A DNA stretch of 26,669 nucleotides, taken from positions 1 through 26,669 of IMG/VR virus record IMGVR_UViG_3300042731_006342; one strand, written 5' to 3'. This stretch comes from a virus. This document shows positions 3,001 through 26,669 of the stretch, piece by piece. The notes under the pieces were generated by a model that worked only from the letters and a program-made list of their open reading frames with translations, did not search any database and was not told the DNA's origin. Made by a program: the position numbers and the translations under genes. Position 1 is the first letter of the stretch; the number at the start of each line of letters is the position of its first letter.

Positions 3001-3231
3001 CACAAAAGGAAATTACTCGTTGATACGTATGTCGAGGGTGTGGGCACGGTCCGTGACTGTCTGGGCTGTGGCGCGCTCATCGCAGGTGGCCCTACGCGCT
3101 GCATTCGTTGCGCTAAAGAGGAAGACCCCAGGAGAGCGCACTGGCGAGTGTGGCTTTTTTGGCTCAGGACGGGGTTATGGAAGACCGTTATGCGTGCTAA
3201 TTGGCGCAGACTAAAGAGGCGCTTTGCGTGA
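2998..3231 (+). CDS. Small zinc-ribbon protein
   Basis: A 77-residue protein from ATG 2998 behind AAAGGAATAGAA. It has a four-cysteine zinc-ribbon motif, CLGCGALIAGGPTRCIRC (about residues 21-38), and a Trp- and Arg-rich C-terminal half ending in a very basic RRLKRRFA. It could bind nucleic acid or protein; no specific family is recognised. Its stop overlaps the GTG of the next gene (GTGA). Confidence 0.7.
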   Translation: MHKRKLLVDTYVEGVGTVRDCLGCGALIAGGPTRCIRCAKEEDPRRAHWRVWLFWLRTGLWKTVMRANWRRLKRRFA

Positions 3232-3962
3232 CCCGCCGCCGCGCCGTCCTCGCCCTAGTTCTGCTCATCCTCACCATCACCCTCGCCGCGATCCTGTACC
3301 AGCCTGGCCCGCGCCCGCCAGTTTCACCATTGGCGCTCTCTCCGCTGGACGGGCCGCCGCTGGACCCTGAGCCGGCAACGCATTTCGTGTACTTGCCGTT
3401 TGTGGCAAGAAACTGGGATGGGAATTTGTTGAGGAATGCGGGATTCGAGGCGGGGATTTATGGCGGGCAGTGTAGATGGTTAAATTATCCTGACGGTGTT
3501 TGGTCGTCAACGTGTTTTGATGAGCAGGATGTCCCGCTCTATTGGACCGGCGGTTGGATTCACGAGGAACCGTGCTACAACGATTATGTCACTGGTCTGC
3601 CGGAAATGCGGCTGGCCGAGCGGTGGGCCGATTCGCGCCGTGTTCATTCGGGCGATTATGCCGCGCAAGCCTTTACGTTCTATCGTTGTGGTTTTTGGTG
3701 GTGGCAGCAAGAAGTCGTTTTGCCGCCAGGGGAGTATCAGGGCAGCGCCTACATCCAGACTTGGGACGATGGGACCTGGGCGCACATCTGCCTGGCCGAT
3801 TATTGCGGGCCGTGGTTCACCTCGCCAGACGAATATCTGAAAATTACAACGCCAGTGATGGAACTGAGTGGAGCGGTTGTGTTTCGCGTAGAGTACAAAG
3901 TAGGAGTGCCAATAAAAAACTCTGATGGATATTTGGATTCTGTAGAACTACGCAAAAAGTGA
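3228..3962 (+). CDS. Secreted host-like protein with Chloroflexota YLPFVARNW motif
   Basis: A 244-residue protein from GTG 3228. The basic MTRRR plus the hydrophobic stretch AVLALVLLILTITLAAILY form a signal peptide or anchor. A Pro-rich linker leads to VYLPFVARNW, a motif I know from many secreted Chloroflexota proteins, and NLLRNAGFEAG, which starts a jelly-roll, carbohydrate-binding-like domain rich in Trp and Cys. Enzyme residues are not evident. It is the last gene before the terminator and looks like a moron taken from a host exported-protein family. A cell-surface role during lysogeny or infection is inferred. Confidence 0.65.
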   Translation: MTRRRAVLALVLLILTITLAAILYQPGPRPPVSPLALSPLDGPPLDPEPATHFVYLPFVARNWDGNLLRNAGFEAGIYGGQCRWLNYPDGVWSSTCFDEQDVPLYWTGGWIHEEPCYNDYVTGLPEMRLAERWADSRRVHSGDYAAQAFTFYRCGFWWWQQEVVLPPGEYQGSAYIQTWDDGTWAHICLADYCGPWFTSPDEYLKITTPVMELSGAVVFRVEYKVGVPIKNSDGYLDSVELRKK

Positions 3963-4176: not shown

Positions 4177-4545
4177 CTACTCACTCAGCCATTCTACCAC
4201 CATTTCTATCCACTGGCGGTAGATGGCGATTTCGCCCTCGTTATAGCCGTTGGCTACACCGAGAAAATCGGCGTTGGCTAGCCAATACTCGAATGAATGC
4301 CTCTCGCAACCGATGGAAATGTATCCACCGGCTGCGATGGCGCGATGCTTCCCGAATGACCCGACGGCAAAACTGCCCCTGGCCTCGGTCAGCTTGGCCT
4401 CGGTCAGCTTGGCCCAGGTCAGGTTGGCGTTGCTCAGGTCCGCCTCGCTCAGCTTGGCCCCGGTCAGGTTGGCGCCGATCAGGTCGGCCTTGTGGAAATC
4501 GCGCTCCCCGGCCCCGTAGCGATCGAGTAGTTCTTTCGTCTTCAT
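4177..4545 (-). CDS. Pentapeptide-repeat protein
   Basis: A 122-residue protein with roughly eight to nine A(D/N/K)Lxx pentapeptides at residues 16-55 (for example KADLIGANLTGAKLSEADLS), which fold as a right-handed beta helix. A separate C-terminal region follows, ending IYRQWIEMVVEWLSE. Some family members mimic DNA and inhibit gyrase, but many have unknown roles and this array is short. The repeats are visible in DNA as 15-bp near-tandem units. Two starts are credible: ATG 4545 with AAAGGAGATAGGA, and ATG 4593 with GAAGGAG, giving 138 residues. It is divergent from groES. Confidence 0.8.
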   Translation of the reverse strand: MKTKELLDRYGAGERDFHKADLIGANLTGAKLSEADLSNANLTWAKLTEAKLTEARGSFAVGSFGKHRAIAAGGYISIGCERHSFEYWLANADFLGVANGYNEGEIAIYRQWIEMVVEWLSE

Positions 4546-4656
4546 TCCTATCTCCTTTTCTCCCCGTTGAACGAACAGAAATCTTTTTTTCATCGCCCTT
4601 GCTCCTTCTTTTTATTTTTGCGCCTACTCGTTCGGCGCTCTCATGGCGTAACAATA

Positions 4657-4720: not shown

Positions 4721-4769
4721 CCAGCAAGTCGTGTCCACTAAATTTCTTCACGTAGGAGGTAAGCAGGAA

Positions 4770-5072
4770 ATGTCACTCAATCTCAAACCCCTCGGCGATC
4801 GCGTCATCGTTGAGCCGGTGGAAAAAGACGAAGAGACCTTTGCCGGCGGCGCGCTGGTGCTGCCCGAGACAGCCAAGGAAAAGCCCCAGCAGGGCGTCAT
4901 TCTTGCCGTTGGGCCAGGCAAAAAGGACGACGGCGGGAATCGTATCCCGATGGACGTCGAACGAGGGCAGCGCGTGCTCTATGCCAAGTACGCCGGTACT
5001 GAAGTCAAGATCGACGGCAAAAAGCTGTTGATCTTGAGGGAAAGCGACATTCTGGCAATTGTCGAATTATAA
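4770..5072 (+). CDS. groES: Phage-encoded co-chaperonin GroES
   Basis: A 100-residue protein of normal GroES length. It begins [20 protein letters not shown], has the mobile-loop region [20 protein letters not shown], then [15 protein letters not shown] and a C-terminal end like [13 protein letters not shown]. It caps the host GroEL cage to assist folding. By analogy with T4 gp31 it may help fold the phage capsid protein. Start 4770 is chosen because AGGAGG lies just upstream and the conserved N-terminus begins here. No groEL accompanies it. CIRCE control suggests expression follows the host heat-shock response. Confidence 0.95.
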
Positions 5073-7802: not shown

Positions 7803-8071
7803 AGCTAGATTTTATGGATAATTTATCTCAGGCAGAAAAAGAGCAGCTATTGCAGCTGCAAACTCGGCTAGAAAACTTAGAAAACTGTCACATCGAACGC
7901 GCCGCGATGGGCTGGCGCGGGCAGTTTGACGAGCGCCAGCGCGGGCTGATTCGCAACTGCGAAAAATACGCCAGTGATAACCCGTCTGGTTTGCCGGGAC
8001 ATAAGTTGATACTCATTGTGGCTAAGATGGCTCAACTGTTGGATGGTGAGAAGAAATGGTCAGATGGTTGA
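7799..8071 (+). CDS. Hypothetical 90-residue helical protein
   Basis: It begins MKLDFMDNLSQAEKEQLLQL with an amphipathic coiled-coil-like N-terminal third (about 9-32), then RGQFDERQRGLIRNCEKYA. No known domain. It is coupled by ATGA to the gene before and overlaps the next by 16 bases. Confidence 0.65.
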   Translation: MKLDFMDNLSQAEKEQLLQLQTRLENLENCHIERAAMGWRGQFDERQRGLIRNCEKYASDNPSGLPGHKLILIVAKMAQLLDGEKKWSDG

Positions 8072-8199
8072 GCTACACGAAATTGGACCCATTCGCAGCC
8101 CTCGGCGCTGTCGGCATGCTGCGCCTCGCCGCTGTGCTGGGCGACAGCCCGTTGCCGCTGGCGGTGCGGTTGATGAGGATGGCGGTTGATGTTCCATAA
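8056..8199 (+). CDS. Hypothetical 47-residue hydrophobic mini-protein
   Basis: ATG 8056 has GGTGAG five bases upstream. The 47-codon frame begins MVRWLSYTKLDPFAALGAVG, contains one moderately hydrophobic helix and ends RMAVDVP. It fills the gap between two better-supported genes and overlaps both, which supports translation. Confidence 0.5.
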   Translation: MVRWLSYTKLDPFAALGAVGMLRLAAVLGDSPLPLAVRLMRMAVDVP

Positions 8200-8395
8200 A
8201 AGCGGCCAGTATCGCGGCGAAAAAGTCCGCTATCCCGACGGCGTTGGCTGCTGCGTCTGGCGCGTGTTCCCCGGTGAGGACGAGGGGCTGGGCGTGGCGA
8301 TTGACTTTTTGCCAGAGGACATTGACGACTTGATAGCACTCTTGCAAACGCTAAAGGGCGCTGAGGCGGTGGAATTTGAGGACGGTGAAGCATAG
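8189..8395 (+). CDS. Hypothetical 68-residue protein
   Basis: From ATG 8189, beginning MFHKSGQYRGEKVRYPDGVG. Alternating strands lead to an acidic helical end (PEDIDDLIALLQTLKGAEAV). No family is recognised. It starts inside the previous mini-gene; GAGGATGG upstream may serve as the ribosome site. Confidence 0.65.
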   Translation: MFHKSGQYRGEKVRYPDGVGCCVWRVFPGEDEGLGVAIDFLPEDIDDLIALLQTLKGAEAVEFEDGEA

Positions 8396-8407
8396 GAGGA
8401 ATTTGCA

Positions 8408-8671
8408 ATGCTGGACTTTGATAGTATGTCAGAGGGGCAACTGAAAGACTTGATTAAAGACCTGTCTACAAAAGGGCGCGAAACAAAGAGTCCCGACATT
8501 AGCGCACTTTTTGCCCCTGTGCCTCAAATGGGCGAATGTGACCAATGCGGCAGTGATTTGAGACAGCTTTCCCGCGTTGGACTGACCATTAAATACAGTG
8601 GCTTTGAGTTTTGTTGCGATTGCTGTTATGAGGAATGGATGGATGCTCGTTATGAGAGCAGAAGGACATAG
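8408..8671 (+). CDS. Small zinc-binding protein
   Basis: 87 residues from ATG 8408 behind TAGGAGGAATTTGC. The N-terminal half is acidic and helical (EGQLKDLIKDLSTKGRETKS). The second half has paired cysteines (CDQCGSD and FCCDCCYEEW), as in a zinc ribbon. Possible nucleic-acid or protein adaptor; no specific family. Confidence 0.7.
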   Translation: MLDFDSMSEGQLKDLIKDLSTKGRETKSPDISALFAPVPQMGECDQCGSDLRQLSRVGLTIKYSGFEFCCDCCYEEWMDARYESRRT

Positions 8672-8678
8672 CGGGGTT

Positions 8679-9086
8679 ATGACCGCAATCCTGGCCCTCG
8701 CGCTTCTATTCGCTCCCACCGAGCCGCTACGCGACGCCCGGCACGTCGAGCTATCCCGCGTATCTCACTATGCACCAGGCAGAATGCAAGAGGTCATTGC
8801 CAACCGGCAAAACGGATGCTGTGGGCGCTACTCGCTGCCCGATCCACTGCCGCAAGCCGACGGCTACATTGCCACGGCGTGGCCTGATGACATCGGAACC
8901 TTCGTCACGCTGCGGCCGGTCGGTTCAAAGCGCTGGTGGCGGCTCTACGTCGTGGACTGCGGCGGGCGCAGTGACGGGGGGCAGGCGTGGTTGTTGAGGA
9001 ACGGGATTGTTGGGGAAGTGGACTATGAGACGGCGCTGGCCTGGGGCACGGTGGGGCGGCTGGGAGAGGTGGAGGTGTTGAGGTGA
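8679..9086 (+). CDS. Exported protein of unknown function
   Basis: About 135 residues from ATG 8679, with a short hydrophobic signal-like stretch (MTAILALALLFAPTEPLRDA) followed by a Cys- and Trp-containing domain (VSHYAPGRMQEVIANRQNGC, VVDCGGRSDGG). The compact domain, with GRYSLPDPLP and two or three cysteines, would suit a secreted barrel-like fold, but I cannot name it. ATG 8652 is an alternative start; no ribosome site settles the choice. Confidence 0.6.
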   Translation: MTAILALALLFAPTEPLRDARHVELSRVSHYAPGRMQEVIANRQNGCCGRYSLPDPLPQADGYIATAWPDDIGTFVTLRPVGSKRWWRLYVVDCGGRSDGGQAWLLRNGIVGEVDYETALAWGTVGRLGEVEVLR

Positions 9087-9244
9087 CTCCGCCGAATATA
9101 ACAATAACTATCGTGGTTGATACAAGCCGATTTGACGCCGCTCTGGTCGAGACAAAGCGTGTATTGACCAGACTGTTTTACTGGCGTCGCGTCACGATTC
9201 TGACAGGGTTTGTCACATTATGCGCTATACTGAGCACGATTTGA
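9083..9244 (+). CDS. 53-residue membrane mini-protein
   Basis: GTG 9083 overlaps the upstream TGA (GTGA) and has GGAGG upstream at 9070-9074. It begins MTPPNITITIVVDTSRFDAA and ends in a hydrophobic helix (VTILTGFVTLCAILSTI), so it looks tail-anchored. No family is recognised. Confidence 0.55.
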   Translation: MTPPNITITIVVDTSRFDAALVETKRVLTRLFYWRRVTILTGFVTLCAILSTI

Positions 9245-9327
9245 AACAGCACATCCCATTTCTGAGAGTTATTTGGTCGGTATTATGGTTCATCGTGATC
9301 GTTCTGGCTATAGTAAAGCATCTGTGA
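9220..9327 (+). CDS. 35-residue single-TM mini-protein
   Basis: ATG 9220 opens 35 codons, overlapping the previous gene by 25 bases. It is an amphipathic start (MRYTEHDLKQHIPFLRVIW) plus a TM helix (VLWFIVIVLAIV) and KHL. It ends as GTGA with the next start. No obvious ribosome site. Confidence 0.5.
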   Translation: MRYTEHDLKQHIPFLRVIWSVLWFIVIVLAIVKHL

Positions 9328-9425
9328 CCCGCCGCCGCTACCCCCGCGAGTTCTGGTACTTCGTCGCGCTCAACGCGCTGGTGGCTGCGGCGGTGGCGGT
9401 GGCGGGGATGGTGGTGGGGCGGTGA
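9324..9425 (+). CDS. 33-residue single-TM mini-protein
   Basis: GTG 9324 opens MTRRRYPREFWYFVALNALV, followed by an Ala/Val-rich TM helix ending VVGR. The MTRRR beginning matches the start of the 3228 gene, where the DNA GTGACCCGCCGCCGC is shared. It is linked by GTGA overlaps on both sides. Confidence 0.55.
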   Translation: MTRRRYPREFWYFVALNALVAAAVAVAGMVVGR

Positions 9426-9925
9426 ATAGAGATAGTAAAGTTAAGCAAGAAATATTAGACAATCTAATGTCTCCCAGTGAAGTTTTGGAAAGAATAGAAT
9501 GTCTGGAAAATGTAGACCGTCGGGATTTTTATACTGATGGCAAGCTTGATTTGGCGAAGGCGGAGCGAAGAGGTAAGCTTGGACAAATCAAGGGCTTTTC
9601 TTGTGATGGAAACGGTAAGATCATTGACATTCAGCTTTATAATGATCATTCTGGTATCGTTTATTTGATTCGGGCCGAAAACGGATTGATTAAAATAGGA
9701 CAAACAACCAAGTTGGCCAAAAGACTTTCTGCCATTGATAATGCTTCCCCAACAAGTGTTAAACTGGTTTCATCTGGCTTTGTGCTGAATCGCCGTAAGG
9801 TTGAAAGTGAGCTTCACAGTAAGTTTGCTGGCAGAAGGATAAAGGGGGAATGGTTTGATTTAAGCGAAACAGAGACGAATAAGGCCATCAGAATTTTGTC
9901 GGATTATGTTATAGATGAAGAGTAG
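9422..9925 (+). CDS. GIY-YIG/T5orf172-type nuclease domain protein
   Basis: A 167-residue protein. Residues 78-148 match the GIY-YIG-like T5orf172/MUG113 type: IVYLIRAENGLIKIGQTT, then KRLSAIDNASP, and ESELHSKFAGRRIKGEWFDL. Such domains cut or bind DNA and often occur in selfish phage genes. Residues 15-75 (MSPSEVLERIECLENVDRRD) resemble the tail of small-terminase proteins, hinting at fusion with, or insertion near, a terminase gene. It is clearly more AT-rich than the terminase genes that follow. The activity is inferred. Confidence 0.65.
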   Translation: MNRDSKVKQEILDNLMSPSEVLERIECLENVDRRDFYTDGKLDLAKAERRGKLGQIKGFSCDGNGKIIDIQLYNDHSGIVYLIRAENGLIKIGQTTKLAKRLSAIDNASPTSVKLVSSGFVLNRRKVESELHSKFAGRRIKGEWFDLSETETNKAIRILSDYVIDEE

Positions 9926-9927
9926 AA

Positions 9928-10548
9928 ATGATTGCGCTATTGGCGGGTGAACGACAGAGGGGAGAATCAAGTAAAGCTGCTCAAGCCTGTAATGATTATT
10001 TGAGGCTAGGCCCTGGCCGTTCTCTACACGATCTTTGGCGCGTGTATGCCAAAGTTGACCAAAGTCAACCGCCTACGCGTTCTTTGGGGACCATAAAGAG
10101 TTGGTCGGCCCGCTATGGCTGGCAAAGCCGTGCCGCCGATTACGATGCCAAGCTAGAGGAAGAAAAAAACGCCCGCGCTGAAAAAATAATGCAATCTGGC
10201 CTTGCGCTGGAACACGAACGGGTTGACAATCTTAAAGACTTGGCTATTTTTCTGTGGGGCGAAATTACGACAAAGGGTGAAGACGATTCGTACCCCAACG
10301 TTTGGTTGCCCGACGTGAAGCAAATCGGCTCTGGTGTACACGCTGAACGAGTAGACATAGAACGTTTTAACTCACCGCTCATCAGTGAATTTCGTGCCAC
10401 TCTGGATGATTTGGCAAAAGAGACGGGTGGCCGCAAGCAACGCCACGAGCACACCGGCGAGGGCGGGGGCGCTATACCCGTAAAACATTACATCACATTT
10501 AGCCCTGATGAGTGGAATGAGAAAGATAACACCGATAGCGACGTATGA
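9928..10548 (+). CDS. Terminase small subunit (putative)
   Basis: A 206-residue protein. The YLRLGPGRSLHDLWRVYAKV and LGTIKSWSARYGWQSRAADY stretches fit a small-terminase DNA-recognition helix-turn-helix, and a long helix follows (DAKLEEEKNARAEKIMQSGL). It would recognise the packaging site and load the large subunit. It overlaps the large terminase by 41 bases, the usual order. ATG 9928 follows the upstream stop by 3 bases. Confidence 0.75.
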   Translation: MIALLAGERQRGESSKAAQACNDYLRLGPGRSLHDLWRVYAKVDQSQPPTRSLGTIKSWSARYGWQSRAADYDAKLEEEKNARAEKIMQSGLALEHERVDNLKDLAIFLWGEITTKGEDDSYPNVWLPDVKQIGSGVHAERVDIERFNSPLISEFRATLDDLAKETGGRKQRHEHTGEGGGAIPVKHYITFSPDEWNEKDNTDSDV

Positions 10549-11779
10549 GCCGTTACCCTGGCAACTAGAGCCGTTGCGGGACACCTCGCCCGTGGTGCTC
10601 TTGACCGGCTCTGCCGGCGGTGGCAAATCCCGGTGTGCCGCTGAAAAGGTTCACGCTTATATGCTGCGCTATCCAGAGGCAACCGGTTTGATGCTGCGCA
10701 AGGCCCGTGAGTTTGCCAGCAAATCTATTGTGCCATTTGCGCGGCGCAACGTGATTGGCAAAGACCCGTTTGTGACGTATCGCCAAAGTGCCGGATATTT
10801 TGAATACGCAAACGGAAGCGCGTTGTACTGGGGCGGTATGCGCAATGATGACCAGCGTGAGGCCATTCGCTCGATGGGGCCAGATGGCTCTTTTGACATC
10901 GTGTGGTTGGAGGAAGCAAACGCTTTTAGCAGATTGGATTTTGATGAGATTCTAGCTAGGATGCGCGGCAAAGCAGCAGACTGGCGTCAGATTATTCTCA
11001 CCACTAACCCTGACTCACCTGCTCACTGGATTCATCAGGACTTGATTCTCGGCAGTGGCGCGAATGTATATTACAGCAGCGCACAAGAAAACCCGCACAA
11101 TCCACCAGACTATGCCGAGACGCTTTCGCGCTTGACCGGCGTGTTGGCCGACCGCCTCGTGCGGGGGCTATGGGTGCAAGCCGAGGGCGCAATCTATGGT
11201 ACATTTGACGCGGAGATACACGTCATTGATCCGTTCGAAATACCGAATGACTGGCGACGATTGCGGGCAATTGACTTTGGCTATACCAATCCTTTTGTGT
11301 GCCAGTGGTGGGCGTTGAACGGCGATGGTGATATGTTTCTCTACCGTGAGATTTATCACACGGGCCGAACGGTGCGCGCTCACGCTGAACAAATTCGAGC
11401 GCTGTCTGAGGGCGAGCCGATAGAAGCGACGATCTGCGACCACGACGCTGAGGATCGTGCTACGCTAGCCGAGAATGGCATTATCAATCAAGCCGCCGAC
11501 AAGCGGGTGAGCATTGGCATAGAGCGAGTTAAAGAGCGACTGCGCAAGCGCGAAAGTGGCAAGCCGAGGCTGTGCATTATGTGTGATTGCCTGGTGGAGA
11601 TTGACCCGGTGCTAGAACAGAAAAAGTTGCCAGTATCCACGCTAGCAGAAATATCAGGCTATGTGTGGGCGAATCATAAAACAAAGGAAGTGCCAGTAAA
11701 GGAAAACGACCACGGCTGTGATGCTATGCGCTATGCAGCGATGTATGTTGACGGCGGCTCGTCGTGGGACTGGTTCTAA
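10508..11779 (+). CDS. terL: Terminase large subunit
   Basis: 423 residues, a usual size. The packaging ATPase has Walker A LTGSAGGGKS (about 32-41), Walker B FDIVWLEEAN (Glu135/136) and coupling motif LTTN (164-167). The RNase H-like nuclease has AIDFGYTNPF (Asp256), ATICDHDAED (Asp311/313) and a C-terminal NDHGCDAMRYA. It drives DNA into the prohead and cuts it. ATG 10517 is an alternative start. The stop overlaps the next ATG (TAATG). Confidence 0.95.
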   Translation: MSGMRKITPIATYEPLPWQLEPLRDTSPVVLLTGSAGGGKSRCAAEKVHAYMLRYPEATGLMLRKAREFASKSIVPFARRNVIGKDPFVTYRQSAGYFEYANGSALYWGGMRNDDQREAIRSMGPDGSFDIVWLEEANAFSRLDFDEILARMRGKAADWRQIILTTNPDSPAHWIHQDLILGSGANVYYSSAQENPHNPPDYAETLSRLTGVLADRLVRGLWVQAEGAIYGTFDAEIHVIDPFEIPNDWRRLRAIDFGYTNPFVCQWWALNGDGDMFLYREIYHTGRTVRAHAEQIRALSEGEPIEATICDHDAEDRATLAENGIINQAADKRVSIGIERVKERLRKRESGKPRLCIMCDCLVEIDPVLEQKKLPVSTLAEISGYVWANHKTKEVPVKENDHGCDAMRYAAMYVDGGSSWDWF

Positions 11780-11958
11780 TGCGCATCCGCCCCGCCGACA
11801 TCGCGCTGGCACTACTCACGGCACTCATTATCCTGTCACCTGTGGCGTGGGTGCTGGGCGCGCCGTTGATTCGCGTAGCGCCGACGATGACATTCTGGGT
11901 TGTACTCTGGTTAGTCGTGGCGGCGTTGGGCCGTCAAGGAACAGACGATGATAGTTGA
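11779..11958 (+). CDS. Two-TM mini-protein between terminase and portal
   Basis: A 59-residue protein, MRIRPADIALALLTALIILS at the N-terminus, with two hydrophobic helices (about 8-28 and 36-51) and an acidic tail. Its start overlaps the terminase stop (TAATG) and its end overlaps the portal start by 11 bases. An inserted membrane protein between the packaging motor and portal is unusual. Function unknown. Confidence 0.65.
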   Translation: MRIRPADIALALLTALIILSPVAWVLGAPLIRVAPTMTFWVVLWLVVAALGRQGTDDDS

Positions 11959-18063: not shown

Positions 18064-19701
18064 ATGGACGAATTGAAAAAGAAACTCAAGGCGCTGAAGG
18101 CAAAGCACCGGGGGCTGACCAGTGAGGCCGCCGAGGCGTTGAGCGCTGAAGCGCCGGACCTGGAGGCCGTGAAAGGCTTTAACGACGAGGCCGAGCAGGT
18201 CAAGGCACAGATTGACGAGGTTGAGCGCACGATCAAGGCACTGCAGGACCAGGCCGCTGAACGAGAAGCCGCCGAAAAAGAGGCCGAGAAAGAGCGTGAG
18301 GTCGAGATCAAGACGCGGGCCAACGAGCTGGCAAAGGAAATGCTGAAGGACATCGGCATCCAGCGCCCCGACTATAACGGCAGTGAGGTTGAGGAAGCGC
18401 CCACGCTGAAGATGAGCGGGCCTTACGATTCTTTCAGCGCCCCCGAGTTGGCGCTGGGCTATATGCTGCTCAAGGCGCACGCGCAAAATGGAATGTGTAC
18501 CCCCCCGTCGGTAGACTTTCGCCGGGCTGTGCACGGGCGTGCTGTCAAGCACGTTGAGGCGAATGGCCTGCGCCCCCTGGTGCGCCCCGACGCTGACAGC
18601 TTCGTAGGCCGGCGCTACGGTGGCAAGGCTGCCCCGATGGTCTATCATCAGGCGGCGGACTTGCAGGTGCTCAAGGCGCTGTCGGTCAAGGCCGATGAAC
18701 TGATGGGGTCTGACGTGTCAAGCGCAGGTGACGACTGGATTCCGGCTTTTTACAGCCGCGAGCTTTTCCGCTACGTGCGCAATGCGGCGATGGTTGCTCC
18801 GTTGTTCCGGCAGTTGGAAATCGAGGGCGAGAGCTACACTTTCCCCGTCCAGTCGGGCGGCGTGACGTGGTATCGCACTCCCCAGACTGACGACGCGGCG
18901 GAAATGGTGTACAGTGACGCTTTTATCACCACCCGCGTTAGCAAAGTCGCTACCGGCAATATCACGCTGACGCCCAAGAAGGTTAGCGCCATCGTGATCT
19001 GGACCGGTGAGATGAACGAGCAAAGCCTGGTCCCGATGTTGCCCTTCTTGCAGCAAGAGTTTGTTGAGTCTGGTGCTCACACGCTGGATGAACTACTGGT
19101 CTCTGGCGACGAATCAACCGGCGCGACTAACATCAGCGACTATGCTAATGCTGCTATCAGCACCTATTGGCGACTGCTGACGCTGGATGGCTTGCGCCAT
19201 CACGCGCTTGAGGACGGCAGCGGCGCAAACTCCCGCGACGGTGGCGGTATCACCGCCGAGGATTTTATCGCCACCAAGAAGCTGATGGGGACTAACGGCA
19301 AGTGGGGCGTTGATCCTAGCAAAGTGGCCTGGGTTATGGACCTCGGCTCATACTTCAAGGCGCTGACTCTGGGCGAGGCGCTGACCCGCGACAAGCACAT
19401 CCCCGCCACGTTCGAGAACGGCGAGATCACGCGCATCTTTGGCAGCCCCGTCGTTTACTCCGAGGACTACGGTGCAACTGACGCCAACGGCGACATTCAC
19501 AATACCACCGGCGACAACACCAAAGGAAGTTTCTTGTGTGTGCGACCGGAGCAGGGCGTTGTGGGATTCTCCCGCCGAATGTTTATGGAGACCGGGCGAA
19601 TCCGCCGCGCTGATGCCTACGAACTCGTTGCTCATATGGAAGTTGACTTTGACCTGAGCAGCTACGATTTCGTTGCGTTGAGCTACAATCTCACCGTGTA
19701 G
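18064..19701 (+). CDS. Major capsid protein, HK97-like
   Basis: 545 residues with an N-terminal coiled-coil delta/scaffold domain (about 1-105, MDELKKKLKALKAKHRGLTS, rich in Lys/Glu/Ala). An HK97-like shell region follows, with YRTPQTDDAAEMVYSDAFIT and KKVSAIVIWTGEMNEQSL stretches and a typical late Gly/Asp-rich insertion. GAGGTGA sits ahead of ATG 18064. The delta domain would be cut by the upstream protease in maturation. Confidence 0.9.
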   Translation: MDELKKKLKALKAKHRGLTSEAAEALSAEAPDLEAVKGFNDEAEQVKAQIDEVERTIKALQDQAAEREAAEKEAEKEREVEIKTRANELAKEMLKDIGIQRPDYNGSEVEEAPTLKMSGPYDSFSAPELALGYMLLKAHAQNGMCTPPSVDFRRAVHGRAVKHVEANGLRPLVRPDADSFVGRRYGGKAAPMVYHQAADLQVLKALSVKADELMGSDVSSAGDDWIPAFYSRELFRYVRNAAMVAPLFRQLEIEGESYTFPVQSGGVTWYRTPQTDDAAEMVYSDAFITTRVSKVATGNITLTPKKVSAIVIWTGEMNEQSLVPMLPFLQQEFVESGAHTLDELLVSGDESTGATNISDYANAAISTYWRLLTLDGLRHHALEDGSGANSRDGGGITAEDFIATKKLMGTNGKWGVDPSKVAWVMDLGSYFKALTLGEALTRDKHIPATFENGEITRIFGSPVVYSEDYGATDANGDIHNTTGDNTKGSFLCVRPEQGVVGFSRRMFMETGRIRRADAYELVAHMEVDFDLSSYDFVALSYNLTV

Positions 19702-19777: not shown

Positions 19778-20995
19778 ATGAACAAACAACAAACACAAAC
19801 AATTGTAAGCATCTTGCTCGGCGCGGTTCTGGCAGTGGCCGCCGTGCTGGGCTGGGTGATTGATCCTGTCGAGATCGTCTTGCCTGAAGCCGGTGTTGAA
19901 ATCAAGGCCGTCGAGCGCGGATCTTTGCTCTGCGCGACCGAGGACGGCAACTGCGTTGAGGCGTGGAATGGAACCGACATCAAAATGTATTCTGATGAAG
20001 GCTCAAGCGTCACGTGGCAGGTGGAAGGCTCAACCGGCGATATGACTTTCGGCGGCACAACTCCGCTTTTGACCATCGGCGACGGCGGCGCGGAAGACGC
20101 CGGCATCGTCTGGGACGGCAACGCTGACGATTTCTATCTGGCGTTAGATGACAGCGCTGATGACCTGATACTGGGCTATGGTTCCACTATCGGGACCGAT
20201 GCTCGCCTAACGCTGCAAGACCACCTAACTACTACGACTTTCTTGGTAGGTGATGGCGCAGAGGGCGATATGACTTTCGTCTGGGATGGTAACGCCGATG
20301 ACTTTTACATCGCCCTGGACGATAGCGCCGACGACTTTATGATCGGCTATGGCTCTACTGTTGGGACTGACGCTCGACTGACCATTCAGGACCATCTGAC
20401 CACTACTACCGTTCTGGTCGGCGATGCCCAAGAGGCCGATATGCAGATCGTCTGGGATGGCAACGCCCAGGACTTTCACATCGGCCTGGATGATAGCGCT
20501 GATGATCTGGTGGTTGGTGTCGGCACTACGCTAGGCACGAGCACGACGTTTTCTATAGACGAGAATCAGGTCTTGACTTGGGTGGGCGGACAGATCAACC
20601 TGACTGAGGCCGCCAGTGCCGCTGACACGATCACGGCAAACGAGTGCGGAAAAACGTTCTTTATGAGCGGCGACGACTATACGCTGACGCTCCCTGCTGT
20701 CTCCACTGTATCAGCAGGTTGTGAGTTCCGTTTCATCGTGGCCGGTGCACCGACGACTAGCACTGTCGTGTTGACTGGCAACACTGATGAAGATGTGTTG
20801 GTAGGTGGCATCAACGAGTTGGAGGTAGATACCAACGACGATGGTCCCTATGACGCCGACGCTGATACCATCACGTTTGTCGGTGGCACTGCCGTCGTGG
20901 GTGACTTTGTGTATCTGATCTCTGATGGTTCCTACTTCTACGTCAGCGGTCAAGCAAACGCTGACGGCGGAATTACGATCACGGATTCAGACTAG
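19778..20995 (+). CDS. Repeat-containing structural protein (decoration or fibre type)
   Basis: 405 residues. An N-terminal hydrophobic helix (residues 10-28) is followed by at least three 57-residue repeats with VWDGNADDFYLALDDSADD-like cores, then a C-terminal beta-rich half. VWDG cores recur exactly 171 bp apart at 20108, 20279 and 20450, the last being shorter. Similar repeats occur in phage fibre proteins. GAGGTG precedes ATG 19778. It probably coats the capsid or forms a virion appendage; the hydrophobic N-terminus is unusual for a capsid protein. Confidence 0.65.
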   Translation: MNKQQTQTIVSILLGAVLAVAAVLGWVIDPVEIVLPEAGVEIKAVERGSLLCATEDGNCVEAWNGTDIKMYSDEGSSVTWQVEGSTGDMTFGGTTPLLTIGDGGAEDAGIVWDGNADDFYLALDDSADDLILGYGSTIGTDARLTLQDHLTTTTFLVGDGAEGDMTFVWDGNADDFYIALDDSADDFMIGYGSTVGTDARLTIQDHLTTTTVLVGDAQEADMQIVWDGNAQDFHIGLDDSADDLVVGVGTTLGTSTTFSIDENQVLTWVGGQINLTEAASAADTITANECGKTFFMSGDDYTLTLPAVSTVSAGCEFRFIVAGAPTTSTVVLTGNTDEDVLVGGINELEVDTNDDGPYDADADTITFVGGTAVVGDFVYLISDGSYFYVSGQANADGGITITDSD

Positions 20996-21546
20996 TGAAG
21001 GTCTTTGCCTACTGCGCAGCGAACTACACTGAAGCAACCCGGCGAGCGGCTGGCGTAGAGCCGCTAGTTTGCCCGCCGGTCACGGCTGAAACGCTAGACC
21101 TGCGCCAGTTAGAAGGCAATGACTTTATCTTTATCAACTTGCACAGCTTGCCGGGGGCCTATGCGCTCCTGGGAACACAGACGGGACCACCCATCGCCCT
21201 GCGTGCAGAACAATTGCAAGGGGTGGACCTGGGCGGGTCCGTCGTATTCTCCGAGGCGTGCTTTATGGGTGATGAACAACACCCAATGCGCAAGGCATTT
21301 CTGGATGCTGGTGCAAGCGCCGTCGTCGCCGGACCTGGCGAGAATGCCGGAGCGACGAACGACGGTGTATCAAAATATGGCTTGAAAGGGGCCGACGTGC
21401 TGGGTCTATGGTTGCGACGTGGATTGTTCCTCGGCTTGTCGCCCCTTTTAGCATTCAAATTGGCGCGTCAACGTGTAAGGCTGGCGGCCCTGCGCAGCCA
21501 GTCAGCGTATGACGCGATGGGATTCAAGTTTTACGAAAGGACGTAA
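20995..21546 (+). CDS. Caspase/CHAT-like cysteine peptidase (clan CD) candidate
   Basis: 183 residues. A beta strand ends in FIFINLHSLPGA with His50, and a second block reads VVFSEACFMGDEQHPMRKAF with Cys89, then LDAGASAVVAGPGENAGATN. This order of His, then Cys followed by a conserved GASAVV strand, matches the CHAT/caspase layout. The GTG overlaps the upstream stop by one base. The substrate is unknown; processing of a virion protein or of a host factor is possible. Judged by motif only. Confidence 0.6.
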   Translation: MKVFAYCAANYTEATRRAAGVEPLVCPPVTAETLDLRQLEGNDFIFINLHSLPGAYALLGTQTGPPIALRAEQLQGVDLGGSVVFSEACFMGDEQHPMRKAFLDAGASAVVAGPGENAGATNDGVSKYGLKGADVLGLWLRRGLFLGLSPLLAFKLARQRVRLAALRSQSAYDAMGFKFYERT

Positions 21547-22554: not shown

Positions 22555-25500
22555 ATGACCATCGTAAAGGCCGTTGCCCGCGCCGCGTGCGCCACTAGCA
22601 CAGGTACACAAGACATTACCACGACCGACCTGGGTGGATTGACGCCCGGTGCGGCGCGGTTTTTTGTCGTCCACGCGACGTCGGACGGCACACCAGCCAA
22701 CGGGGCCGTGATGGGCATTGGGGCGGCGACTGGATCAAGCAACCAATGGGCTGTTGGCGCGAGTTCGCAGCACAACGTCTCGACGTCGCAGGCCGAGCGC
22801 CGGGGGATAACCGACGAATGTGTGGTCAAGTGTTGGGCCACTAGCGCGGGTATTGACGGGGAAGCGGCGTTTGATTCATTCATCACAAACGGCGTCCGTA
22901 TCAACTGGGGCAATGCGCCAGCGTCGGCCTATCTCCTGGTGGTCGAGTTGTACGCCGGGACCGACCTGGATGCCCGCGCTGGCATTTTCACGCCGGTTGA
23001 CACTGAGGATTCGTCGGTTGACGTCACCGCGCCGGGTTTTGAGCCGGACCTTGTCTATTATGTGACTACCGGCTATGATTTCGACGATGTTGCGCACACC
23101 AATATCTGGCTGGCTTATGGCGCTGCGGTGAATACGTCGCCGGTCGTGCAGCGATGTTGGGCAAGCTTTGTGTACGATGGGCAGAGCACGACCGATGTGC
23201 GGGCGATTTTTTCCGAGTCATACGCTTGTGGGCAGGTCAATGTGCCCGGGACTTGGATATGGGCCGGCGAGATAGGCTCATTCGATTCAGACGGTTTTAG
23301 TTGCACCACCCGCGAGGGCGATAGCGGCGGCAGTGATGATGTCGGCTATCTCGCCTTGTCCTTTGGCGGCAAATGTGACGTGTGGTGTGGTACAGTCACA
23401 ACGCCCACCTCGACGGGCAATAATTCTCAAACTGGTCCTGGATTTACTCCCCAGTTTGTTACGATGGGCTTGACGCAGCTCGCCAGCACCGAAACGGTGG
23501 TAACGGACGGCACGGCGGGATCGTTAGGCATCAGTTCGTTCACGCCCGACGCTGAATACTGTGTTTCTTGGCAAGATGAGGATGCACAATCAACCACTGA
23601 TACGCAGTGTATCTCTGATGACACGGCGATCAATCTGCCCAGCGATGACGGATCAACCGCACACGTAGCGGCATTTGTTTCGATGGATTCCACGGGCTGG
23701 ACCCTGAACTTTTCAAATACTTTAGGAACGGCTAAATATTGGTGGGTCGTGGCGGTTGGCGTCAGCACCAGTTCCAGCCCTAGCCCGTCGGTATCACCAT
23801 CATCATCGGTTTCGCCTAGTGTTTCGCCTAGTGCCTCCGAGTCACCGTCGGTAAGTCCGTCGGCGTCTGTTTCACCCTCTGCTTCCGAAAGTCCCTCAGT
23901 GTCGCCTTCGGCAAGCATTTCACCATCAGCCAGCGAATCACCAAGCGTCTCGCCTTCAGCGAGTGTCAGCCCCTCGGCCTCTGAATCACCGTCAGTTTCA
24001 CCCAGCGCCAGTGTCTCGCCGTCGGCGTCAGAGAGTCCGAGCGTTTCGCCATCGGCGAGCATTAGTCCCAGCGCCAGCGAAAGTCCTTCAGTTTCACCCA
24101 GCGCTTCGGTAAGCCCTAGTGCGTCAGAATCGCCTAGTATCTCGCCTTCAGCGAGTATTTCACCCTCTGCTTCTGAGAGTCCATCTATTAGCCCGAGCGC
24201 TTCTGAGTCACCCAGTGTAAGCCCGTCAGCAAGCGTGTCACCGAGTGCCAGCGAATCACCGTCAGTGAGTCCCAGTGCTAGTATCTCGCCATCGGCAAGT
24301 GAATCTCCGAGCGTTTCACCATCCGCCAGCATTAGCCCGTCGGCGTCAGAATCGCCGTCTGTCTCGCCATCAGCCAGTGTTAGCCCTAGCGCGTCCGAGT
24401 CACCCAGCGTTTCACCGTCGGCGTCTGTTAGCCCTTCGGTGTCTCCCAGCGCCAGTATATCACCGTCTGCGAGTGAATCGCCGAGCGTTAGCCCTAGCGC
24501 ATCTGTCTCGCCTAGTGTATCGCCAAGCGCAAGCGTTTCGCCATCGGCGAGCGAGAGCGCGTCAGTATCACCTAGCGCTTCGGAAAGCCCAAGCGTTAGC
24601 CCGTCGGCGTCTATATCACCTTCGGCTAGCGAATCGCCGAGCGTTAGCCCTAGCGCTAGTGAAAGCCCGTCAGTGTCACCGAGTGCCAGTGTTTCACCGT
24701 CTGCCTCGGAGTCGCCTAGCGTGTCTCCCAGCGCGAGTGAGAGTCCTTCAGTCTCTCCCTCGGCATCGGTTAGCCCTTCGGCATCAGAAAGCCCTTCGGT
24801 TAGCCCCAGCGCATCGGAGTCGCCCAGCATCAGCCCTAGTGCTAGTGTTAGCCCAAGCGCGTCTGAGAGTGCCAGCGTTAGTCCTTCGGCTAGTGAATCG
24901 CCGTCTATCAGTCCATCTGCTAGCGTGTCGCCGTCAGCAAGTGAAAGTCCTAGCGTTTCACCTTCGGCGAGCGTCAGTCCGTCGGCATCGGTATCACCGA
25001 GCGTATCGCCGTCTGCGAGCGTCAGTCCAAGCGCCAGCGAATCACCAAGCCTCAGTCCATCGGCGTCTATTTCGCCCAGTGCATCTGTCTCGCCGTCAGC
25101 TAGCGAAAGTCCATCCGTTAGCCCGTCAGCATCGCTATCTGCATCTGGCAGCCCTAGCGCCTCAATTAGCCCGTCGGCCTCACTGTCACCATCTGCCTCA
25201 GAATCGCCTAGCGTTAGTCCGAGCGCCAGTGAGTCGCCGTCAGTCAGTCCGTCGGCATCCGTTTCGCCCTCGGCAAGTGAGAGTCCGAGCGTATCGCCCA
25301 GCGCCAGCGTTAGCCCCTCGGTTAGCCCTAGCGCATCAGCTAGTCCTTCTGTTAGCCCCTCGGCATCAGTTTCGCCTAGCGCGTCAGAGAGTCCGAGCAT
25401 TAGCCCTAGCGCCTCGGTGTCACCGTCGGTGTCGCCGTCAGCTAGCGTCAGCCCGTCAGTGTCACCTAGCGCCTCGGAGTCACCGAGCGTCAGTCCAAGC

Positions 25501-25680
25501 GCCAGCGCCTCGCCCAGCATTAGCCCGTCAGCGTCGGCTAGCCCGTCAGTTTCACCTTCGGCATCTATCTCGCCGTCAGCATCGGCTAGCCCATCAGCCG
25601 CAACGGGTGGTTCAATGCCAATTCTTTCATCTAATGGAATTCATAGCGCGATTTTTGGAAGGCAAATCATAAATGGCTAA
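22555..25680 (+). CDS. Large Ser-Pro repeat virion fibre candidate
   Basis: 1041 residues: an N-terminal part of about 405 residues rich in Thr/Ser/Val/Gly (beta-sandwich-like, repeated GF-type strands such as [20 protein letters not shown]), then about 610 residues built from SPSASx units (x often V, I or E), then a short C-terminal end [19 protein letters not shown]. Ser is nearly every second residue and Pro every fourth to sixth, as in mucin-like stalks. Both TCN and AGY serine codons are mixed. It is followed, with an 8-base overlap, by a DXH-type glycosyltransferase. A long surface fibre is inferred. Confidence 0.75.
23770..25602 (+). repeat. SPSxSx repeat array (~610 residues)
   Basis: Tandem SPSASx hexapeptides with an approximate 16-residue higher-order unit ([16 protein letters not shown]). 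Residue 6 is V, I, E, A, L or G. At DNA level serine and proline codons are heavily varied, so exact DNA repeats are short. It spans residues about 405-1015 of the fibre candidate. Confidence 0.9.
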
Positions 25681-26560
25681 GGTGTCTATCGTAATCCCGT
25701 CAAGAAATGAGCAATTTTTATCAAAGACCGTAGATGACCTGTTTGAAAAAGCAGCAGGCGACATCGAGATTATAGCTGTTCTGGACGGCTGGATACCCGA
25801 CCCGCCGCTAGAAGAACGGGACCGCCTAACGATAATCCACAGAAGCAAGGCGCGGGGAATGCGTGATGCCATCAACGCGGCGGCGGCCATTGCTACGGGT
25901 AAGTATTTGATGAAGGTCGATGCCCACTGTATGTTTGGGGATGGGTATGATGAGATTTTGCAAGCCGACTGCGACGATGATTGGCTGGTGATTCCGCGTC
26001 GCGTGAGCCTGGACGCCGAGAACTGGTGCATAGCCGATACTGGCAAATCGCCGGTTGATTACGAATATCTGAGTTGTCCGAATCCGCCTGGATCGGGCAG
26101 GAAAGACGATAAGGGCATTCACGGCAAAGTCTGGCGCGAGCGCGCCAGGGAACGGCTGGACATTGAGATTGACGACAATATGAGTTTCCAGGGTTCGTGC
26201 TGGTTTATGCCCAAAGCTTATTATCATCGAATCGGCGGACTGAACGAGGAAGGTTACGGTACGTTTATTCAAGAGCCGCAAGAGCTCGGCTTAAAGGTGT
26301 GGCTCGGCGGTGGCCGACAAATCACGAACAAACGCACCTGGTACGCACACCTGCATAAGGGTCGCCGCTATGGGCGTGGCTACTTTTTGAGCAAGCGCGA
26401 GTGTCACGACGGCACGCTTTATGCTGCTGATTACTGGCTCAACAATCGCTGGGAAAACCGTGTGCACGATTTAGTTTGGCTCATTGAAAAGTTCTGGCCG
26501 GTTCCGACGTGGCCTGAGAACTATCCTGATTTATGGACAGGGACAGAGTGGACACCCTAG
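25673..26560 (+). CDS. GT-A glycosyltransferase with DXH motif (GT27-like)
   Basis: 295 residues. The N-terminal [12 protein letters not shown] is the GT-A start. The metal-binding motif is VDAHCMFG with Asp83 and His85, a DXH pattern as in polypeptide GalNAc-transferases (GT27), not the usual DXD of GT2. Downstream, [16 protein letters not shown] resembles the GT27 WGGEN region (GGENxEISFRVWQCGG-type), and [11 protein letters not shown] follows. The gene overlaps the repeat gene by 8 bases and has GGAAGG upstream. It is proposed to add sugar to Ser/Thr in the repeats. It lacks the lectin domain of animal enzymes. Specificity is inferred. Confidence 0.75.
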
Positions 26561-26669
26561 CCTGCATACTCAACAAATATCAGATTGACGGCGATGTCAG
26601 GCGAATGCCGATTGAGATTCCCAACGTGGGTCGGGATGATTTGGCGGCACTTTTTGCCGAGCTTGAATT
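26533..26669 (+). CDS. Start of a probable SAM methyltransferase, cut by the window edge
   Basis: About 45 codons from ATG 26533, overlapping the glycosyltransferase by 28 bases, running off the right end. The stretch MPIEIPNVGRDDLAALFAEL resembles the N-terminal part of class I SAM-dependent methyltransferases found in phages (FkbM-like group); the SAM-binding part lies outside. It may modify the same glycan or fibre. Confidence 0.5.
   Translation, partial: MDRDRVDTLACILNKYQIDGDVRRMPIEIPNVGRDDLAALFAELE

Follow-up and report, generated by a model that had tools for sequence, protein, structure and literature searches.

The polypeptide N-acetylgalactosaminyltransferases (GalNAc-Ts; CAZy GT27) are enzymes of the eukaryotic Golgi, and both animal mucins and bacterial serine-rich repeat (SRR) adhesins pair a long Ser/Pro-rich tail with a modifying enzyme. 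In the SRR adhesins, which are exported from the cell, the modifying enzymes are N-acetylglucosamine (GlcNAc)-transferases of the GtfA/B type, with their genes in the same locus. Here we describe a similar pairing that, unlike the SRR system, consists of a phage gene and a GT27-like enzyme. It lies in a 26,669-base virus record, IMGVR_UViG_3300042731_006342, analysed over its whole length and called the window below, where the gene for a protein with a long SPSASx repeat overlaps the gene for a glycosyltransferase with an Asp-X-His (DXH) motif. We read the locus as a phage-encoded O-glycosylation cassette with a dedicated mucin-like acceptor protein, at a probability of about 0.7. Glycosylation of the repeat protein, which the first-pass annotation of the window had proposed, is suggested by the coupling of the two genes and by their co-occurrence elsewhere, and the hypothesis is supported.

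In phages, virion glycosylation has been described in a few mycobacteriophages, which modify ordinary virion proteins. For example, the capsid of mycobacteriophage Che8 has been reported to carry covalent glycans (Freeman et al. 2023, via PMC11256854). Che8 gp108 is a GT2 enzyme fused to a Methyltransf_24 domain, the same methyltransferase family as in the window cassette, and the two systems are alike in their phage-encoded GT2-type enzymes, their Methyltransf_24/TylF methyltransferase and their glycans on virion proteins (putative in the window). A sugar-type methyltransferase beside a phage-encoded glycosyltransferase, a mark of a virion glycosylation system, is present in the window. On the other hand, the Che8 enzymes lack the DXH motif, their match to the DXH profile is weak and partial (17 bits), and their acceptor is the capsid protein itself. 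An SPS-repeat protein was found in none of 13 phage loci retrieved via the Che8 enzyme, a weak control consisting mainly of close mycobacteriophage relatives. Chloroviruses and other large DNA viruses also encode their own virion glycosylation (PMC7019647, PMC4691112). Unlike the window phage, these viruses have eukaryotic hosts and use different enzymes. We know of no SPSASx acceptor in chlorovirus-type glycosylation. Our literature search found no paper on GT27-type enzymes of phages or on mucin-like phage proteins; one vinegar virome names GT27 in a CAZy table only.

The enzyme and its fold

The cassette and its parts are as follows:

22555-25680, + strand: repeat-protein open reading frame (ORF), 1041 aa, made up of head, SPSASx tail and C-terminal peptide
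22555-23769, + strand: head, aa 1-405, predicted all-beta (AlphaFold model)
23770-25599, + strand: mucin-like SPSASx repeat, aa 406-1015 (composition count)
25600-25680, + strand: C-terminal peptide (26 aa) and stop, recurring in the viral loci L002, L066 and L090
25673-25680, + strand: overlap of 8 bases between the repeat-protein and glycosyltransferase genes
25673-26560, + strand: GT27-like (DXH) glycosyltransferase, 295 aa, catalytic domain alone (Pfam, PDB profile and fold match)
25919-25927, + strand: codons of D83-A84-H85, the DXH metal motif (invariance in relatives)
26348-26350, + strand: codon of H226, aligned with the third metal-binding His of GalNAc-Ts (invariance in relatives)
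26548-26669, + strand: start of a Methyltransf_24-like methyltransferase, cut at the window end (GTG start; 13-nt overlap with the enzyme gene)

In Pfam the enzyme matches Glycos_transf_2 alone (2.6e-13). A profile of 12 relatives searched against the PDB places GalNAc-Ts first, over positions 4-254, with E-values from 3.9e-11 (GalNAc-T1) to 2e-9, and most of its other GT2 matches cover only the N-terminal ~100 residues. The AlphaFold model (predicted local distance difference test, pLDDT, 86.9; predicted template modelling score, pTM, 0.89) returned GalNAc-Ts as all of its best 50 Foldseek matches. In VIA-align the GalNAc-T entries listed reach Z 24.0-27.4, compared with 19.4 for chondroitin polymerase, the next fold; the comparison with GT27 folds had been named in advance as a check, and its outcome (Z 24-27.4 vs 19.4) places the enzyme nearest GT27. 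The likeness extends to GalNAc-T1, T2 and T10 and to Toxoplasma GalNAc-T3, which share the GT-A fold (Z 24-27) and ~16-22% identity over ~265 residues. In Pfam none of the 12 members matched GT60 (Skp1/mucin GlcNAc-transferase) with E allowed up to 1, and no GT60 structure was among the PDB matches listed; a fold related to that of GT60 is possible.

The active site follows the same pattern. In alignments, D83, H85 and H226 fall on the metal ligands of GalNAc-Ts, and none of the three varies among the short relatives (73/73). In addition, many of the same cassettes encode a second, longer DXH paralogue (n=73, median 531 aa; e.g. L002 5441-7063), which keeps D83 and H85 in all 70 members with aligned residues (3 gapped) and H226 in all 69 (4 gapped); no Pfam match was found for its C-terminal ~280 aa. 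For the roles of these residues we presume what is generally held for GT27. The VDAHC motif read from the sequence at the outset does stand at residues 82-86, with Asp83 and His85. The WGGEN-like region held up in part: of the loop itself the first Glu (E201) alone is kept, while the E..(I/L)...W..GG after it and H226 further downstream align with GalNAc-T columns, an E..E(I/L)...W..GG region being common to both enzymes. The window enzyme reads FIQEP there; E201 is invariant in the short set, and nearly all short members have P, A or S where WGGEN has its Asn (P202 in the window enzyme). In the longer paralogue a Trp occupies the position of the WGGEN Trp (198) in 57/73. Because the WGGEN loop and GalNAc-contacting residues are not kept, the enzyme is GT27-like rather than a GT27 member. 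It shares with GalNAc-Ts a Ser/Pro-rich, disordered candidate acceptor, here encoded next door, and it differs from them in lacking a ricin-type lectin domain and a signal anchor, in its altered donor-sugar contacts, and in occurring, with putative catalysis, in phages and prokaryotic genome bins.

Recurrence in viruses and genome bins

Co-occurrence of SPSASx proteins with DXH enzymes in other phages had also been set out beforehand as a check. Enzyme loci (L002-L091) came from two viral scans, many of the records being fragments; enzymes were clustered at 80% identity, and ORFs counted as SPS-dense if they had five or more SPS within 60 aa. Such an ORF lies near the enzyme in 63/84 loci, or 48/67 clusters, against an occurrence in 1/120 random viral loci (Fisher 9e-28), the latter fetched via an arbitrary 15-mer, equal in total DNA and unmatched for genome region or host. 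None of these 120 control loci has a DXH enzyme. Wherever a cluster has an SPS ORF, the one closest to the enzyme shares its strand; in 18/46 SPS-bearing clusters it is the immediate upstream gene, where gene order would lead one to expect 4.7 (binomial 2e-7). A reverse search points the same way, as a strong enzyme match is present in 5 of the 9 records retrieved through SPS sequences. SPS-only DNA pattern and peptide scans gave few loci, because of the mixed codons and because low-complexity sequence is masked by tblastn.

The relative L002, 71% identical, repeats the whole layout: an SPSASV protein with a different head, an 8-base overlap, the enzyme, a Methyltransf_24 gene and the second DXH enzyme. 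The overlap claimed for the window is confirmed at its ends (ORF end 25680, enzyme start 25673), and the two genes are probably translationally coupled. The methyltransferase suspected after the enzyme likewise holds, with GTG at 26548; its 40-aa start matches L002 4366-5070 (best E 2e-12, phmmer), which is itself Pfam PF13578 (Methyltransf_24) at 2e-13.

A homologous head occurs on the SPS proteins of L023 and L029 and in 14 further loci without an SPS-dense ORF, one of which (L273) is near-identical to another (L274). No DXH enzyme was found in the whole records searched for these head-only loci (all 14 but L273 and L280), a contrast partly built in, as both tail-bearing relatives were already known from the enzyme search. 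One relative without an SPS tail, L267, carries Ser/Thr-only low-complexity spacers on the window-type head domain (8001-11792), in a phage record without a DXH enzyme.

By tblastn against the 50,697 GenBank phage records of INPHARED, the short enzyme, the long paralogue and the SPS protein of L009 were unmatched at 1e-5. In genome bins the DXH enzyme occurs mainly in Patescibacteria, and some of the pairs of short and long enzyme are on contigs of 149-456 kb, mostly without an SPS ORF within 8 kb. Bins with the enzyme were weighed as candidate hosts; it is present in only 2/96 genomes sampled from one Patescibacteria-type phylum, so its distribution is patchy. On four Patescibacteria genome-bin contigs (L234, L244, L236 and L258) one or both DXH enzymes sit amid methyltransferase and glycosyltransferase genes. 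SPS-rich proteins were also seen on two of them, L234 and L258.

The repeat protein and its surroundings

The repeat of about 610 residues first described is present, and is now seen to be flanked by a 405-aa head and a 26-aa C-terminal peptide. It holds 307 Ser, 114 Pro, 78 Ala, 59 Val and 32 Glu, with 114 SPS, and as a long, low-complexity tandem repeat of 610 aa with 50% Ser and 19% Pro it has the make-up of a mucin-like domain. At a lag of 16 residues its self-identity is 0.82 in protein and 0.51 in DNA, both Ser codon blocks are mixed within it, and strong autocorrelation of synonymous codons was not seen at even-numbered lags up to 60 (highest z 2.4). Since synonymous codons are scrambled, the repeat is not a recent DNA tandem expansion, and since the peptide pattern is kept all the same, it is maintained as protein. 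Either the tail arose long ago or selection acts against repetition in its DNA, and it is the pattern of the peptide that persists. Most of the relatives' repeats that were tested are likewise scrambled, while L053, L007 and L039 (L058 more weakly) show recent expansion at the DNA level.

The AlphaFold model of the head (pLDDT 89.4, pTM 0.92, from a 13-sequence alignment) probably consists of three tandem ~135-aa beta-sandwich units. Along its full length it is matched best by a single-chain C1q-head trimer, at Z 6.3, which is below the level to trust; the match fits the three predicted units. Matches to viral models are weak and include a phage DUF7483 protein. Searches by sequence found no match to the head in the PDB, and no family for head or repeat in Pfam and PHROGs. 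Part of the C-terminal peptide, PIL/ISANGIHS..FGR..NG, recurs after the repeats of L002, L066 and L090 on proteins with different heads, and this conserved peptide after the SPS tail is a possible docking or capping signal.

The first description of the protein as a fibre is better replaced by that of a virion-surface protein. In about a dozen phages the gene order is major head protein, directly next an SPS protein whose N-terminus of ~110 aa is conserved, and then the enzyme; against the PDB, this capsid-adjacent N-terminal domain gave chance-level matches only. In the window, terminase, portal, Mu-F-like and capsid genes precede the repeat-protein gene, which lies a few genes downstream of the capsid gene:

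18064-19701, + strand: major capsid protein (Pfam Phage_capsid 2.5e-6; PHROG major head protein 3.4e-12)

Going by these gene orders, the 1041-aa repeat protein probably belongs to the virion surface. A portal-anchored search for relatives of the window phage gave one distant match.

Other genes of the window deserve mention. Between the capsid and repeat-protein genes, the protein at 19778-20995 has a hydrophobic N-terminal segment, repeated WDGNADDFYIALDDSADD units and a weak likeness to tail fibre family PHROG 4209, and the 183-aa protein at 20995-21546, shortly past the capsid gene, has an H...SEACFMG pattern reminiscent of CHAT/caspase-like proteases and no Pfam match. Further upstream are a GroES (Cpn10) gene at 4731-5072 (E 6e-32), with no GroEL noticed alongside, and a short pentapeptide-repeat protein at 4177-4593 on the minus strand, opposite most genes (Pfam 1.5e-12). 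A secreted-looking protein at 3201-3962 bears the motif YLPFVARNWDGNLLRNAGFE. We take it to resemble Chloroflexota surface proteins, a possible hint at the host.

Competing explanations and significance

In the explanation that we favour, the folded beta head would anchor the repeat protein at the virion surface, and the 610-aa SPSASx tail would offer up to 307 serines in a Pro-rich, disordered context. Given the GalNAc-transferase fold and the D-x-H...H metal site of the enzyme, transfer of a sugar from a uridine diphosphate (UDP)-sugar to the Ser hydroxyls of the tail is most likely, putatively in the host cytoplasm and with retention, as GT27 enzymes do. The Methyltransf_24/TylF-type methyltransferase encoded by the next gene would probably methylate or cap the sugar, the second, longer DXH paralogue of many relatives may lengthen the glycan or add sugars elsewhere, and the finished protein, once assembled, would give the phage particle a stiff, hydrated brush of glycans. 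The sequence, gene order, fold similarity, conservation of the metal site and co-occurrence are shown here; that the tail is the acceptor, the transfer and identity of the sugar, the location in the virion and the role, whether shielding or attachment, are what we infer.

Several observations weigh against this explanation. GalNAc-contacting residues are altered, not only at the WGGEN Asn (P202, or A or S) but also, for example, at AGG (Q173-G-S), and therefore another donor sugar is possible. The 295-aa enzyme lacks the ricin-type lectin domain of GalNAc-Ts, the structural match stopping before it; this C-terminal domain is typical of GT27, and is not universal there. There is no clear structural match for the head, and the random control loci were, as stated, unmatched. 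In addition, 19/67 enzyme clusters have no SPS ORF in the flank, nor do about three quarters of the genome-bin enzyme loci, which are mostly from Patescibacteria, and the enzyme may therefore have other acceptors.

Two alternatives bear on these points, the first being a variant that may hold alongside the favoured explanation. The long DXH paralogue could be the initiator and the short enzyme could extend its product, or each could act on different sites. Many cassettes encode both, both keep the D-x-H...H triad, and it is the long form that keeps the WGGEN Trp position; nevertheless, the short enzyme is itself best matched by GalNAc-Ts, and in many clusters it is the one whose gene is coupled directly to that of the SPS protein; we consider this division of labour possible, at odds well short of even. 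The second alternative, which we judge unlikely, is that the DXH enzymes act on another target, either a host surface glycan or lipid carrier in superinfection exclusion or another virion protein, and that the SPS tail is only a flexible, unglycosylated spacer sharing the operon. The clusters without a flanking SPS ORF, the similar enzyme pairs in genome bins, and a record such as L267, with its Ser/Thr-only spacers and no enzyme, would all be at home there. The enzyme is, however, nearest to polypeptide transferases rather than to lipid- or glycan-acting GT2s, and its loci are strongly enriched in SPS ORFs, which are coupled to it directly on the upstream side. Finally, a long antisense ORF overlies the repeat, and the idea that the repeat ORF is a low-complexity DNA artefact or belongs in such another frame is very improbable, as unrelated phages carry SPS-rich proteins on the enzyme strand with different DNA and N-terminal domains, and codons in the window are scrambled while the peptide is kept. 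We rejected the antisense ORF (697 aa, 23427-25520, minus strand) and a further ORF that crosses the repeat in another frame, both being by-products of Ser/Pro/Ala codons.

We return to the cassette with a dedicated acceptor: sequence is enough to recognise its enzyme and candidate acceptor, which are coupled in one operon and recur in no fewer than 48 clusters of the enzyme from uncultivated phages. A broader proposal, whose chances we see as evenly balanced, is that uncultivated phages and some Patescibacteria bins have a prokaryotic mucin-type O-glycosylation, in which GT27-like initiators and SPSASx virion proteins would give a methylated glycan brush on capsid or tail, and that these enzymes form a branch of the GT27 superfamily outside eukaryotes. 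If the cassette reading is true, a glycan-brush virion would be open to test by two-gene expression, and a compact, membrane-anchor-free GT27-like glycosyltransferase would be available for cell-free O-glycosylation. It would also add viral and prokaryotic relatives with which to trace where the enzymes that initiate animal mucin glycosylation came from.

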